A stretch of 54,273 nt of DNA from Thermoleophilia bacterium (GTDB taxonomy: Bacteria; Actinomycetota; Thermoleophilia; Miltoncostaeales; Miltoncostaeaceae): assembly GCA_020438485.1 (NCBI GenBank), contig JAGQUM010000047.1, positions 1 to 54,273 of the forward strand, written 5' to 3'. A model generated the notes under the pieces. That model was not told the origin of the DNA. It made no database searches and saw only the letters and a program-made list of their open reading frames with translations. Position 1 is the first letter of the stretch. Every line of letters begins with the position of its first letter. The position numbers and the translations under genes are program-made. Positions 1,262 to 7,019 of this stretch are shown here, one piece after another.

Positions 1262-2767
1262 CTACTTGTCGGTGGGCTCCAGGTACTGATCGATGACCTG
1301 CGTCGCGAGCTGCGCGTTGTCGGTCAGGGTGACGCCCTCGCGCAGCGCCACCACCCCGCGGGCCTGCTGCTTGTTGAGCACCAGCGCCAGGCCCAGCGCG
1401 ATCTTGGCCTCGCCCAGGTTCGGGTCGATCGCGACCGCCGAACGGGCGGGGGCGAGGGCATCGCCGGGCAGCTCGGCGCGAACCATCGAGAACGCCTCGA
1501 ACGCGGCGGCCGTCGCATCCTTCGGGTCGATCGCCGCCGCCTTCGTGAACGCCACCGTGGCGGCCTTCTGCTGACCCCGCTGGCTCAGGATGGTGCCGCG
1601 CGCCATGGCCGCCTCGCCCATCCGGGCGTCGCGGGCGAGCGCACGCGTGTACGCACCCAGGGCCGGCTTCGTCTGCTTCCGGCGCTCCAGGATGCGGCCG
1701 TTCACGAACTGCCCGGGTGCGGAGCGCTTCCAACCTCGCGGCCACGCCGCGTACAGTTTCGCGGCATCCGCCTGCTTGCCCGTACGGGCCAGGTAGAGGG
1801 CCCGCGCGACCGCGACGGCGAGGACCTTCGGCGAGCGGTTCTGTGCCGCCGCGTATGCGCGCGAGAGGTCGGCCACCGGCGTCCAGTCGGGCGACGCGGT
1901 GAGCTTCACGGTGCGCTCGGCGCGCCCGCGGCGGAACTGCACGTCCACCGGCTTACCGGCCGGCAGCCCCCGCAGGGCCGTCTGGAGCTGGCCTGTGGTG
2001 AGAGTGGGCACCGAGTTGATTGACAGGATGACGTCGCCGCGCCGGATGCCGGCCTTGACGGCCTCACCCCTGGGGGCGAGGGCGCCCACGAGCTGGCCGC
2101 CCTGGGCGGGCAGCTTGAGCGACCGGGCGAGGGGGCGCCACAGCGGTACCAGATCCATGTCGAGCCGGCCGCGGGGGCTGGTGGTCGCCAGCGAGACGGT
2201 CTTCTGCAGCGTGTTCGACACGCGGCTCTGCGCGTCGGAGGCCTGCAGCCGAATGCGGTACTTGCCGGCCGGCAGCTGGTAGCCCTGCTGGTTCGTGGCC
2301 TGCAGCAGCATGTAGACGCGGCCGGGCGCGGTGGCGGTGGCGGTCGTGGTCTGCACCAGCTTGTCGCCCTTGGTGTCGAACACCTGTGCCGTGACGGTCC
2401 CCGGGCCGCTGACGCGGACGCCCACCAGGAAGCGCGCGTGGCCCTGCGGGGCCGACACCGACGCGGGCACCTTGAGGTTACGCAGCACCGGCGGGCCGAC
2501 GGCGGCGGCGGGCGGCGTTGTGGCCGTCGGCGCCGTCGCCGCGGTGGTCGTCCTCGTGGGTGTCGTCCGCGTCGGTGTGGCCGCAGGCGTCACCTGCGTG
2601 ACCGCGCCCGACCCGGTGCCGGGCGACGTCGGGGCGGTCGCCGTGGGGGCCGGCGACACCTGCTCCACGGCGGGCTGGGCGAGCGCGGGGGCCGCGGCGC
2701 CGAGGCCGGCGGCGAGCACCGTGAGGGCACCGAAAGCGGCGTGGCGATGGGAACGAAGACGTCGCAT
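1262..2767 (-). CDS. Secreted PDZ- and TPR-containing protein
   Basis: A 501-residue exported protein. The N-terminus is a signal peptide with a predicted cut after PALA (about residue 30), followed by a Thr/Pro/Ala-rich linker to about 100. An Ig-like segment resembling FlgD or BACON-type folds covers about 105-200. A PDZ domain follows (about 205-300; core GIRRGDVILSINSVPT) and then TPR-like helices to the end. No protease domain is present, so it probably acts as an extracytoplasmic adaptor or scaffold. The ATG at 2767 places the signal peptide at the very start; a -10-like TAGGGT lies 7 nt upstream, which suggests a leaderless mRNA. An in-frame start at 2797 would run into the divergent promoter. 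Confidence 0.8.
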   Translation of the reverse strand: MRRLRSHRHAAFGALTVLAAGLGAAAPALAQPAVEQVSPAPTATAPTSPGTGSGAVTQVTPAATPTRTTPTRTTTAATAPTATTPPAAAVGPPVLRNLKVPASVSAPQGHARFLVGVRVSGPGTVTAQVFDTKGDKLVQTTTATATAPGRVYMLLQATNQQGYQLPAGKYRIRLQASDAQSRVSNTLQKTVSLATTSPRGRLDMDLVPLWRPLARSLKLPAQGGQLVGALAPRGEAVKAGIRRGDVILSINSVPTLTTGQLQTALRGLPAGKPVDVQFRRGRAERTVKLTASPDWTPVADLSRAYAAAQNRSPKVLAVAVARALYLARTGKQADAAKLYAAWPRGWKRSAPGQFVNGRILERRKQTKPALGAYTRALARDARMGEAAMARGTILSQRGQQKAATVAFTKAAAIDPKDATAAAFEAFSMVRAELPGDALAPARSAVAIDPNLGEAKIALGLALVLNKQQARGVVALREGVTLTDNAQLATQVIDQYLEPTDK

Positions 2768-2806: not shown

Positions 2807-4066
2807 ATGCCGTCACCCCTTACGCCGCTCGAATACATCGAACATTTCCTGGGCGGCGAGTCGGTGGACGAGGCGTCTGCGCGGGACTTCTTCCGCACGT
2901 GGGTGGCCGACGTGGGCGCCGATCCGCAGATGGCCGCGTGGATGGTGCACGCGGCGCGCGCGGGTGTGGACGACTCCACGCTGTTCGCCCTCGTCTCCGA
3001 GCTGGTGGCGTCGGGGCAGCGCCTCGAGCTGGCGTCGCTGGGTCCGGTCGGCTCCATCGTGTCGACTGGCGCCCTGGGGGACGCTGTCGCGCTGGTCGCG
3101 ATCCCCATCGCGGCCGCCCTGGGGGTCAGGGTCCTGTGCGATGCGGAGGAGGGGGTCGGGGTGTTCGGCGGTCTCGGTGAGCAGCTGGCCTCCATCCCGG
3201 GCTTCCTCGACGGGCTGCCGTTGCGCGACGCGATCGCCGGGCTCGCCGAAGGGGGGTGCGCCACGTCGACGGGGATGGGGGAGATCGCCCCGGCGCAGCG
3301 GCGCCTGGCCGCGCTGCGCGCCCACACGGGCCTGGGCAGGGACCCGTCCACCGTTGCGGCGTCCGTCGTCGCGCGGGTGCTCGCGCTGGGCGCGCCCGCG
3401 GCATGCATCCACGTGCCGTTCGGCGACGGGGCCATGGTCCCCGACCGGGCGGGCGCCGACCGCGTCGCCGCCGTCGCCGCGGCTTTCGGGGAAGCCTGGG
3501 GGCGACGTCTGCCCGTGGTACTCACCGAGGTGCCCGCCATCATCGGGCCCGGGCTGGGCCACGCGCCGTCCGTTCGGGCGGCGGCCCAGGTGCTCGACGG
3601 GGGCGGCGACGCCGGCCTGCGCGACGCGGCCACGCGCGTGGCCGGCGCGCTGGCGGCGGCGCTGGGCCTGGGCGACGAGGGCGACGCCGGGCGCGCCATC
3701 GCGGACGGGTCGGCACGTGAGGCCGCCGGCCGGTGGGTGGCCGCCCACCACGCCCGGCCGAACGTCTGGACCGAGGCGGGCGGCCCGCCGCTGGCTCCCC
3801 ACACGCGGGAGGTCATCGCCGCGGCCGCGGGCGAGGTGCGGGTGTCGTCGCCCGGGGCCCTCGGGGCCGCCGTGCGGCGCCTGGGGGCGGGGCGCCTGCA
3901 TCCCATCCAGAGCGTCGACCCCGGGGTGGGGGTGGTGTTCTCGATCGTGCCCGGCGAGCAGGCCGAGGCGGGCGAGACCATCGCGACGGTCCACGGGCGC
4001 GACGCGTACATGGCCGACGCGGTGCGCGACGAGATCGCGGCCCTTGTCGGAGGACGCCGTGCCTGA
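2807..4066 (+). CDS. Thymidine/pyrimidine phosphorylase-like protein with a degenerate active site
   Basis: A 419-residue protein with the full three-part layout of DeoA/Pdp: a helical N-terminal domain, a central Rossmann-like domain and the C-terminal PYNP_C domain (near PGEQAEAGETIATVHGRD). It aligns without gaps to E. coli DeoA around the active site, yet VDKHSTGGVGD has become GSIVSTGALGD (K84 to I, H85 to V), the GRGLGHTGGT loop reads EEGVGVFGGL (T123 to L), and K190 is R. Arg171 and Ser186 are kept. Phosphate and base contacts are therefore largely lost. It may be a pseudoenzyme or act on another ligand. It overlaps mutM by 8 bp, so the two are co-translated; the gene probably starts leaderless. 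Confidence 0.8.
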   Translation: MPSPLTPLEYIEHFLGGESVDEASARDFFRTWVADVGADPQMAAWMVHAARAGVDDSTLFALVSELVASGQRLELASLGPVGSIVSTGALGDAVALVAIPIAAALGVRVLCDAEEGVGVFGGLGEQLASIPGFLDGLPLRDAIAGLAEGGCATSTGMGEIAPAQRRLAALRAHTGLGRDPSTVAASVVARVLALGAPAACIHVPFGDGAMVPDRAGADRVAAVAAAFGEAWGRRLPVVLTEVPAIIGPGLGHAPSVRAAAQVLDGGGDAGLRDAATRVAGALAAALGLGDEGDAGRAIADGSAREAAGRWVAAHHARPNVWTEAGGPPLAPHTREVIAAAAGEVRVSSPGALGAAVRRLGAGRLHPIQSVDPGVGVVFSIVPGEQAEAGETIATVHGRDAYMADAVRDEIAALVGGRRA

Positions 4067-4895
4067 GCTGCCCGAGGTCGAGACGGTCCGCCGCCAGCTC
4101 TCGCGCCGCATCCCGGGCCGGATGATCCTCCGCGTGGAAGTGCACGACCCGCTGTGCGTGGCCCCCGCCGACCCCGAGGAGCTGCGCGTCCTGGAGGGGC
4201 GGGAGGTGCGCCGCGTCGCGCGCCGCGGAAAGCACCTCCTGATCCATCTGGACGACGGGGCGGCGCTGGTGGTGCATCTGCGCATGACCGGCCGCCTGCT
4301 GTGGCACGCGCCGGGCCGGGCGGACGACGCCGACCGGTTCCTGCGCGCGGTCGTCGCGCTGGACGACGGGTCGCGGCTGGCGTTCGCCGATCAGCGCCGC
4401 TTCGGCCGCCTGCGCGTCCTGCCGGCCGGGGGCGACCCCGAGGCGTTCTGGCGGGGCCGCGTGGGCGCCGAGCCGCTGGGGGCCGGGTTCGACAACGCCG
4501 CGCTGGCCCGGGCGCTGCGGGGGCGCAGCACCCCCGTGAAGGCCGCGCTGCTCAACCAGGCGCTGGTCGCGGGCGTGGGCAACATCTATGCCGACGAGGC
4601 CCTTTTCCGGGCCCGCATCCACCCTCTCACGGACGCCGGGGCGCTGGGACCCCGCCGGGTCGCCGCGCTGCGCGAGGCCATCGTTGACGTGCTGGAGCAG
4701 GGGGTGGCGACCGGCGGGGCCTCCATCCGTGACTACGCCGACGCGGAGGGTGCCCGGGGCGGGATGCAGGACGTGCTCCGTGTCCACCTGCGCGAGGGCG
4801 AGCCCTGCGTGCGCTGCGGCGCCGTCATCCGAAAGCTGCGCGTGGCCCAGCGCGGCACGTACGTGTGCCCGGCGTGCCAGCGGCGGGGGCGCTGA
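4059..4895 (+). CDS. mutM: Formamidopyrimidine-DNA glycosylase / AP lyase
   Basis: A 278-residue bifunctional base-excision glycosylase removing 8-oxoguanine and formamidopyrimidines and nicking the abasic site. Pro2 and Glu3, the Schiff-base and acid residues, follow the initiator directly (PELPEVETV), which fixes the GTG at 4059. Lys58 sits in the RRGKHLL hairpin, the H2TH motif carries GVGNIYADE, and a C-terminal zinc finger uses C250, C253, C270 and C273 with Arg265 on the DNA-contact loop. Length is normal for the family. The start lies inside the end of the deoA-like gene, and the P1 peptidase starts one base after the stop, so the three form one transcript. Confidence 0.97.
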   Translation: MPELPEVETVRRQLSRRIPGRMILRVEVHDPLCVAPADPEELRVLEGREVRRVARRGKHLLIHLDDGAALVVHLRMTGRLLWHAPGRADDADRFLRAVVALDDGSRLAFADQRRFGRLRVLPAGGDPEAFWRGRVGAEPLGAGFDNAALARALRGRSTPVKAALLNQALVAGVGNIYADEALFRARIHPLTDAGALGPRRVAALREAIVDVLEQGVATGGASIRDYADAEGARGGMQDVLRVHLREGEPCVRCGAVIRKLRVAQRGTYVCPACQRRGR

Positions 4896-4896
4896 C

Positions 4897-5850
4897 GTGC
4901 CGATCGGCGGCGTCGCCATCGGCCACTGGACCGACGCGGACGCGGGCACGGGCTGCACCGTGGTCATCCCGCCGCCCGGCACCGTGGGCGCGATCGACGT
5001 GCGCGGGGGAGGGGCCAGCACCCGCGAGGCGGCGCTGCTCGACCCCGTCAGCAACGTGCCCGGGCCCACCGCGCTGCTCCTGACGGGTGGCAGCGCCGTC
5101 GGCCTCGACGCGGCCGCGGGCGTCACCCGGTGGTGCCGCGAGCGTGGCGTCGGCCACGACGTATCGGTGGCGACGGTTCCCATCGTCGTGTCGGCCGTCA
5201 TCTTCGATCTGGGCATCACGGGCGGCGCGCGTGTCCCGGGGCCCGACGACGCCTACGCGGCGTGCGCGGCGGCGCGGGATGCACCCCCGGCGCAGGGCTG
5301 CGTGGGGGCGGGGACGGGCGCGACCGTCGGCAAGTTCTTCGGTCGGGAGGGGTGGTGCAAGGGTGGCCTGGGGTGGGCCGAGGCCACCACGTACGACGGG
5401 GCCCGCGTCGGGGCCCTGGTCGTGGTCAACGCGTTCGGCGACGTGCTGGACGAGCGCGGTGACGTGCTGGCGGGCGCGTGGCGTGACGGCATCGGCTTCG
5501 TGCGGACGTCCGAGTGGAGTCTGCGGCGCCCGCCGTCGCATCCCCGCATCGCCCCGACCCACACCACGCTGGCGTGCGTCGTCACCGACGCGGCGCTCAC
5601 GCCGGTGGAGGCAACCCACGTGGCCCGGGCGGCGTCCGCGGGCGTCTGCCGATGCGTTGCGCCCGTCAACACGGCGCTCGACGGCGACGTGAGCTTCGCC
5701 CTGGCCACCGGGGCCCGCCCGGCGGCGGCCATCGGGTGCGCCCTGGCCGCCGCGACGGCCACGGAGCGGGCGGTGCGCAACGCCGTGCGGCACGCCGTCA
5801 CGCTGCGGGGGGTCCCGACGGCGACGATGCGCCGCGCGGGAGCCGACTAG
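4897..5850 (+). CDS. P1 family (S58) self-processing aminopeptidase
   Basis: A 317-residue member of the DmpA/BapA/NylC Ntn-hydrolase family. The N-terminal part is typical (GGVAIGHWTDADAGTGCTVV, then TALLLTGGSAVGLDA and the GTGATVGK stretch). Family members cut themselves to free a Ser or Thr nucleophile at the start of the beta chain; here the site should be before Thr in PTHTTLACVVTDA, so the residue before the cut is His rather than the usual Asn or Gly. Substrates in the family are N-terminal D- or beta-amino acids or amide oligomers, and cannot be told from sequence. The GTG start is one base after mutM; the end overlaps the convergent glutaredoxin gene by 4 bp. Confidence 0.85.
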   Translation: MPIGGVAIGHWTDADAGTGCTVVIPPPGTVGAIDVRGGGASTREAALLDPVSNVPGPTALLLTGGSAVGLDAAAGVTRWCRERGVGHDVSVATVPIVVSAVIFDLGITGGARVPGPDDAYAACAAARDAPPAQGCVGAGTGATVGKFFGREGWCKGGLGWAEATTYDGARVGALVVVNAFGDVLDERGDVLAGAWRDGIGFVRTSEWSLRRPPSHPRIAPTHTTLACVVTDAALTPVEATHVARAASAGVCRCVAPVNTALDGDVSFALATGARPAAAIGCALAAATATERAVRNAVRHAVTLRGVPTATMRRAGAD

Positions 5851-6281: not shown

Positions 6282-7019
6282 ATGGCCGACCCCCTCGAGA
6301 CCGACGCCGTGGTGCTGCGCGCCATCCGCTACGGCGAGGCCGATGCCGTGCTCAGCATCTACACCCGCGACAGGGGGCGCGTGTCGGCCATGGCCAAGGG
6401 CGTGCGTAAGGCCACGTCGCGGCTGGGCGGGCGGGTCCAGCCGGGCGTGTGGTCGCGCCTGTCGCTCCATCGGGGCCGGGGCGACATGTACCAGCTGCGC
6501 GGGGCACACGTGGTGCGCACCAACGCCGGGTTGTGGACCGAGGCGCGGCGGCTGGCGGCGGCGTCCTGCGTGCTCGAGGCCGCCATGAGGGTGCTGCCCG
6601 AGGAGGAGGCCAACGAGGAGGCGTTCGCGCTGCTGGTGCGCGCGCTCGGGGCCCTCGCGGATGGGCCCACGCTGCCCGGACCTCCGCACCTGCACCCCGT
6701 GGTGCTGGGATTCGGCGCGAAGCTGCTGGTGGTCAGCGGCCTGCTTCCCCACCTGCAGGCGTGCGTGACCTGCGGGGCGCCCCCCCCGGTGCGCTGGTTC
6801 TCGGCCCGCGCGGGCGGGGTCCTGTGCGACGGGTGCGGCCATGGAGTCCGAGTGGGCGACGGCGGCCGCACCGCGATGATCGCGCTGCTCGCGAGCCCAC
6901 TTCGTGGCGCGGCGGACCGGCCGCTTGAGCCCGCCGACGCGGTCGACGTGGAGCGGATCATCGGCGCGGTCCTGGGCGAGCACCTCGGGCTGGGGCTTCG
7001 CTCCGCCACGCCGGGCTGA
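6282..7019 (+). CDS. recO: DNA repair protein RecO
   Basis: A 245-residue RecO. The N-terminal OB fold is clear (ETDAVVLRAIRYGEADAVLS, then KGVRKATSRLGG), followed by the helical domain and a zinc site, CVTCG at about 161-165 and CDGCG at about 182-186. RecO anneals ssDNA coated with SSB and loads RecA with RecR at gaps. A GTG directly before the ATG is an equal alternative start. The gene stands alone: a 177-bp gap precedes it and a decayed gene follows it. Confidence 0.95.
   Translation: MADPLETDAVVLRAIRYGEADAVLSIYTRDRGRVSAMAKGVRKATSRLGGRVQPGVWSRLSLHRGRGDMYQLRGAHVVRTNAGLWTEARRLAAASCVLEAAMRVLPEEEANEEAFALLVRALGALADGPTLPGPPHLHPVVLGFGAKLLVVSGLLPHLQACVTCGAPPPVRWFSARAGGVLCDGCGHGVRVGDGGRTAMIALLASPLRGAADRPLEPADAVDVERIIGAVLGEHLGLGLRSATPG

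Follow-up and report, generated by a model that had tools for sequence, protein, structure and literature searches.

The closest described relatives of the gene analysed here are the thymidine phosphorylase DeoA and the pyrimidine-nucleoside phosphorylases, with which its product shares a two-domain fold, overall length and the C-terminal PYNP_C domain. The structural superfamily also has a known member without catalytic activity, TrpD2/YbiB, which is not derived from deoA. YbiB binds DNA and ObgE by means of basic grooves, and the ybiB operon is regulated by DNA damage (PMC10123104); it is the nearest known precedent for the case described below. The literature searched described no thymidine phosphorylase (TP) family that is catalytically dead, and no paper on a TP-mutM operon was found.

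The stretch of DNA analysed (the window; G000:C22) has a length of 54,273 nucleotides and comes from a genome of the family Miltoncostaeaceae, class Thermoleophilia (G000, a 2.58-Mb assembly in 91 contigs). The open reading frame at 2807-4066 on the forward strand has 419 codons, as a first-pass annotation had described. On the basis of protein families, fold, site residues and selection, it is here annotated as a homologue of the class II nucleoside phosphorylases (thymidine phosphorylase) whose active site is degenerate. Matches to thymidine and pyrimidine-nucleoside phosphorylases extend along the length of the product (E = 1.2e-35 for PDB 1brw). Its NCBIfam scores are all below the cut-offs (PRK05820, 171 bits against 269; TIGR02644, 166 against 409; TIGR02643, 107 against 571), and in Pfam only the C-terminal PYNP_C domain is over the cut-off (44.6 bits; cut-off 27). 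AlphaFold2, run with 28 family sequences, generated a confident prediction (mean pLDDT 91.5, pTM 0.92), for which the best solved match is again 1brw (Z 46.9, rmsd 2.1 Å, 414 residues), followed by human TP (Z 46.3) and then by TrpD enzymes at Z of about 27. The predicted structure retains the complete two-domain fold of the class II nucleoside phosphorylases, with all-α and α/β domains and PYNP_C, and this bears out the initial suggestion that the fold is kept. The alignment to DeoA had also been described as free of gaps. With DeoA of E. coli K-12 (from NC_000913, residue numbering checked) as the reference, this holds for the segments that make up the pocket, but not overall, where there are 27 gap columns and 105 of 416 positions are identical.

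In the active site the protein departs from DeoA, with K84, H85, S95, S113, T123, Y168, K190 and K191 all replaced. The residues found at the DeoA positions are I84 (3056-3058), V85 (3059-3061), S86, A95, A113 (3143-3145), L123 (3173-3175), A168 (3308-3310), R171 (3317-3319), S186 (3362-3364), R190 (3374-3376) and V191, the coordinates being those of the codons on the forward strand. The changes of K84 to Ile, H85 to Val, T123 to Leu and K190 to Arg were already listed in the first-pass annotation and are all confirmed; D83S, S95A, S113A, Y168A and K191V are further losses. Among the residues for catalysis and phosphate, K84, H85, S86, S95, S113, T123, Y168, R171, S186 and K190, only S86, R171 and S186 are kept. 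The reported retention of Arg171 and Ser186 is correct for the window strain, whereas a sister species of the same genus has Ala at position 171.

Mutants of human TP (PMC2719695 Table 4) provide clues as to the effect of these changes. K115A, equivalent to K84, has a kcat of 6.8 per s against 8.2 per s, while K115E is inactive, so that an enzyme without K84 may still be active. Activity is abolished in H116F and H116K (equivalent to H85) and in Y199A (Y168), and is nil in R202S and R202E (R171) and in S217G (S186). Because H85V and Y168A fall at two positions where a single change abolishes the human enzyme, the window copy is very probably no phosphorylase, and an ordinary active enzyme was rejected for it. 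The published mutants thus argue strongly that it carries out no phosphorolysis of thymidine or uridine, in agreement with the early description of the site as catalytically crippled. Judged from its sequence, the protein belongs to the phosphorylase family by fold and descent, yet fails the catalytic definition of that family.

It had been argued that the gene must be under selection because its frame is clean over 419 codons. The frame is indeed clean, but an antisense frame of 490 aa and a frame of 854 aa in another register occupy the same stretch, and at this G+C the argument is invalid. Open-frame length was therefore rejected as a sign of selection, the evidence for which comes instead from dN/dS (Nei-Gojobori, between close relatives, with mutM of the same pairs as comparison). 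Degenerate copies give 0.162 (G019/G022), 0.106 (G017/G008) and, for pairs within genus g9, 0.141, 0.082, 0.110, 0.114 and 0.131; the mutM values, in the same order, are 0.101, 0.111, 0.012, 0.080, 0.158, 0.071 and 0.109. A range of 0.08-0.16 in seven close pairs, resembling that of mutM, indicates that the degenerate copies are held at the protein level. Intact second copies of the phosphorylase, discussed below, give 0.080 (G019/G022) and 0.096 (G017/G008). In the window's own genus (G000/G001) dN/dS is 0.48 in the dead copy, compared with 0.31 in the intact one and 0.33 in mutM. All three values are raised, probably because codon bias is strong. Constraint is present there but weaker, and of all the cases the gene in the window is the one whose constraint is least secure. 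Loss of the catalytic motif combined with purifying selection marks these proteins as pseudoenzymes, though only moderately so in the window's own genus, where dN/dS is 0.48.

The pattern of retention was also analysed, at positions that are invariant in active enzymes. Across 15 degenerate lineages, the share of these that is kept is 33% for the pocket but 62% for the rest of the protein (Mann-Whitney p = 0.006), a contrast that is not significant without Gly and Pro (p = 0.15). The retained positions are mostly glycines, core positions and the C-terminal LGAGR region. In addition, W32, W231, R357 and Q368 are clade-specific and hardly vary.

The gene is followed on the forward strand by mutM (4059-4895; 278 aa), which encodes a formamidopyrimidine-DNA glycosylase with intact PELPE N-terminus, H2TH and zinc finger (Pfam Fapy_DNA_glyco, H2TH and zf-FPG_IleRS, all over cut-off). 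mutM starts with GTG at 4059 and the phosphorylase homologue stops with TGA at 4064-4066, giving an overlap of 8 nt (4059-4066). The two were originally described as fused by overlap; the reading frames do overlap, but the proteins are not fused. The same overlap of 8 nt is found in relatives from 8 genera; in other genomes the spacing is -1 nt (TGATG; genera g2 and g9) or at most +36 nt. Overlapping frames make translational coupling probable. A peptidase of family S58 (DmpA-like; 4897-5850, forward strand; PF03576, 131.6 bits) comes next, and recO (6282-7019, forward strand; Pfam RecO_N and RecO_C) lies at the distal end of the block. Upstream there is a divergent gene (1262-2767, reverse strand, start inferred at 2767) for a PDZ/TPR protein with a signal-peptide-like N-terminus (Pfam PDZ_6, FlgD_ig and TPR_2). 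The order PDZ/TPR protein, TP homologue, mutM, peptidase S58, recO is identical in all 12 family genomes compared. The S58 gene is also found 3' of mutM in one genome of family f8.

A phosphorylase homologue is found in 39 of 42 Miltoncostaeaceae genomes and the mutM-linked gene in 38 of them, G015 having the second copy only. mutM follows directly in 37 of the 38; the linked gene of G014 is a fragment that stops at the contig edge. In the genomes where no linked gene was found (G007, G027, G064 and G015), no close mutM orthologue was found either, and the absence is thus most likely an assembly gap; true absence of the gene was rejected. Every adequately assembled genome of the family has the gene directly before mutM. 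Two metagenome-assembled genomes titled Bifidobacterium breve (L086, CAMAVU010000027.1; L087, CAMCDF010000019.1) carry a Miltoncostaeaceae-type locus, and these record names therefore look wrong.

Outside the family, mutM lies downstream of an intact phosphorylase in 18 of 20 further loci from the class (nearly all of them from family f3), and within 70 nt of it in 15 of those 18. An f8 genome likewise has an intact phosphorylase before mutM. A deoB-like gene is found just upstream of the locus in one f3 and one f8 genome, and near the locus in G010. Since intact orthologues precede mutM in other families of the class, and the gene block is identical for intact and dead members, the linkage is ancestral and older than the loss of the active site, and hence says little about any new role. 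The place of the window gene before mutM and recO, and its descent inside the class clade, identify it as the orthologue of the deoA of other Thermoleophilia, which is intact beside mutM. The first-pass annotation was correct that the gene is conserved alongside mutM: a search for homologues found the linkage across the family and the site loss in most of its members. Homologues showing that a normal active site is ancestral, and was lost only in this strain, would have spoken against its reading. Half of this turned out to apply: the ancestral state was indeed a normal site, but the loss spans the family, and strain-specific loss was rejected.

The order of loss can be followed using seven core residues (K84, H85, S86, T123, R171, S186 and K190). 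All seven are present in each of 42 other Thermoleophilia phosphorylases compared, including ten second copies from Miltoncostaeaceae. Of 35 mutM-linked copies in the family, 2 score seven (G016 and G010), 4 score six with K84 alone changed (G013, G023, G004 and G012), 1 scores five and 28 score four or fewer. Because the human K115A mutant is nearly fully active, the four K84-only copies may still be enzymes. The mutM-linked copies form a single clade (100/100) and the second copies another. In a quick tree, rooted on E. coli and built after three very long branches had been omitted, the clade of the class includes the mutM-linked copies (SH-aLRT 97) but not the second copies. Among the mutM-linked copies, the two intact ones diverge at the base, and two of the K84-only copies separate next from all others (SH-aLRT 91 and 80). 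The pseudoenzyme lineage is thus real and extends over the family, and what it has lost and what it has kept are recorded with unusual completeness. The TP gene of G012, a complete genome (L049, G012:C1:1724000-1731000, minus strand), has six of the seven core residues and is frameshifted near codon 290. After the frameshift the frame continues into mutM as one open reading frame; this could be a sequencing error, decay or a programmed shift. The TP homologues of L018 (G002), L020 (G005) and L017 (G011) evolve extremely fast, with branches of 1.3 to 2.0 changes per site. All three are still full length and before mutM, and that of L020 has none of the core residues.

The window's genome contains a second phosphorylase from the same superfamily on another contig (G000:C21:49686-50948), 31% identical to the window protein. 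Unlike the window copy, it has all seven core residues and lies in a salvage cluster, together with genes for a Bmp-type ABC transporter, a HAD hydrolase, adenosine deaminase, a PfkB kinase, a PsuG-like protein (Pfam Indigoidine_A) and cytidine deaminase. From its gene content, this is plausibly a locus for nucleoside uptake and salvage. In all nine genomes with both copies the mutM-linked copy is degenerate, and all seven copies with at least five core residues are from genomes with no second copy. Genus g12 follows this pattern, in that G012, with no second copy, keeps six of seven core residues while three relatives with a second copy keep two. Gain of a second copy was nevertheless accepted only in part as an explanation of the site loss, since genus g9 and genomes G002, G003 and G005 are degenerate without one. 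Elsewhere in the pathway, deoB is over cut-off only in G010 and G012, and deoC is nearly universal. In g9 there is no second phosphorylase, no deoB at the cut-off and no cytidine deaminase match, and the dead copy is kept nonetheless; in that genus, ordinary salvage of pyrimidine nucleosides is therefore an unlikely role for the protein.

On balance we consider it probable that the gene is a vertically inherited deoA of the family that has become a pseudoenzyme, its scaffold being repurposed for binding. The source would be an ancestral cluster deoB-deoA-mutM-recO. An intact deoA at the mutM locus has lost its catalytic residues, the predicted structure keeps the fold, and purifying selection acts on the degenerate copies. 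Going by the structure of the family, the retained scaffold is probably a homodimer, and we would guess that its present job is to bind something, most likely another protein; in some genera, such as g9, a rebuilt pocket might perhaps bind a small ligand too. Co-translation with mutM would be inherited and would tie expression to that of mutM. It is possible, although we would not rely on it, that across the family the pseudo-phosphorylases either bind a new ligand in a rebuilt pocket or use the scaffold to regulate MutM, the S58 peptidase or RecO. If so, what was once a metabolic enzyme would now be a regulatory subunit, co-translated within a repair operon.

A rebuilt pocket could alternatively mean that the protein is still an enzyme, acting on another substrate or by another reaction, for example as a nucleosidase or transferase that no longer uses phosphate. 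In g9 the altered pocket residues (I84, R85, L95, G113, V123, A168, R190 and others) are themselves conserved: their mean entropy of 0.31 is lower than that of other changed positions nearby (0.78; p = 0.013) and that of the remaining invariant positions that have changed (0.69; p = 0.02), which hints at a pocket that may have been rebuilt there; against all local positions, however, the test gives only p = 0.05. Across the 15 degenerate lineages K190 has become Arg in 13 and R171 is retained in 11, which also speaks for this reading, but R171 differs between the two species of the window's own genus. Moreover, the replacements vary by lineage (I, L, V, T, P or A at 84; V, Q, L, G, R or F at 85), so there is no common new site, and in lineages other than g9 the pocket varies at least as much as the remainder of the protein (P = 0.97). 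A surviving enzyme of this kind is thus unlikely. Another reading is that the gene is decaying, and that its frame stays open for no other reason than to deliver ribosomes to the mutM start that it overlaps. This would account for the overlaps of 8 nt or 1 nt in most genomes, the fast evolution of the degenerate branches, the high dN/dS in the window's genus and the frameshift in G012. It does not fit the mutM-like dN/dS of the seven degenerate pairs, the lengths of 417-442 aa with a confidently predicted full fold, the presence of the gene wherever the mutM locus is assembled, or the invariant residues that persist across the clade, and we regard it as very unlikely.

The ancestral phosphorylase binds pyrimidines, whereas 8-oxoguanine is a purine. 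This weighs against the first-pass proposal that the protein senses or scavenges oxidised nucleosides in concert with MutM, which had in its favour the overlap and probable co-translation with an 8-oxoguanine glycosylase, and the part of the base site (R171, S186 and R190) left in the window strain. R171 is lost in the sister species, and since the linkage is ancestral and intact orthologues also precede mutM, the idea has no specific support and is most improbable. A nucleic-acid-binding role like that of TrpD2/YbiB would draw on the common superfamily fold and on the location of ybiB, too, within a DNA-damage-regulated operon (PMC10123104). The grooves of YbiB are strongly positive, however, while the sequence of the window protein is acidic overall (pI 5.1, net charge -15) and contains no lysine, so the YbiB mode of binding is not favoured, and we give such a role hardly any credence.

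The lineage offers, in one family and at one fixed genomic position, a graded series that begins with the intact enzyme, passes through mutants changed at K84 alone and ends with pockets that are fully stripped, and in which selection can be measured. It is thus possible to ask directly at what point such a protein is no longer an enzyme, and what maintains it from then on. It is also a warning for annotation, as the best match would name these genes thymidine phosphorylase.

It is worth adding that a second glycosylase gene of the Fpg/Nei family is located about 0.1 kb from deoC, in the opposite orientation, in at least four genomes (G000:C4:82647-84207, G014:C50, G015:C123 and G007:C87). Here too, a gene of deoxynucleoside catabolism is paired with one for a base-excision glycosylase.
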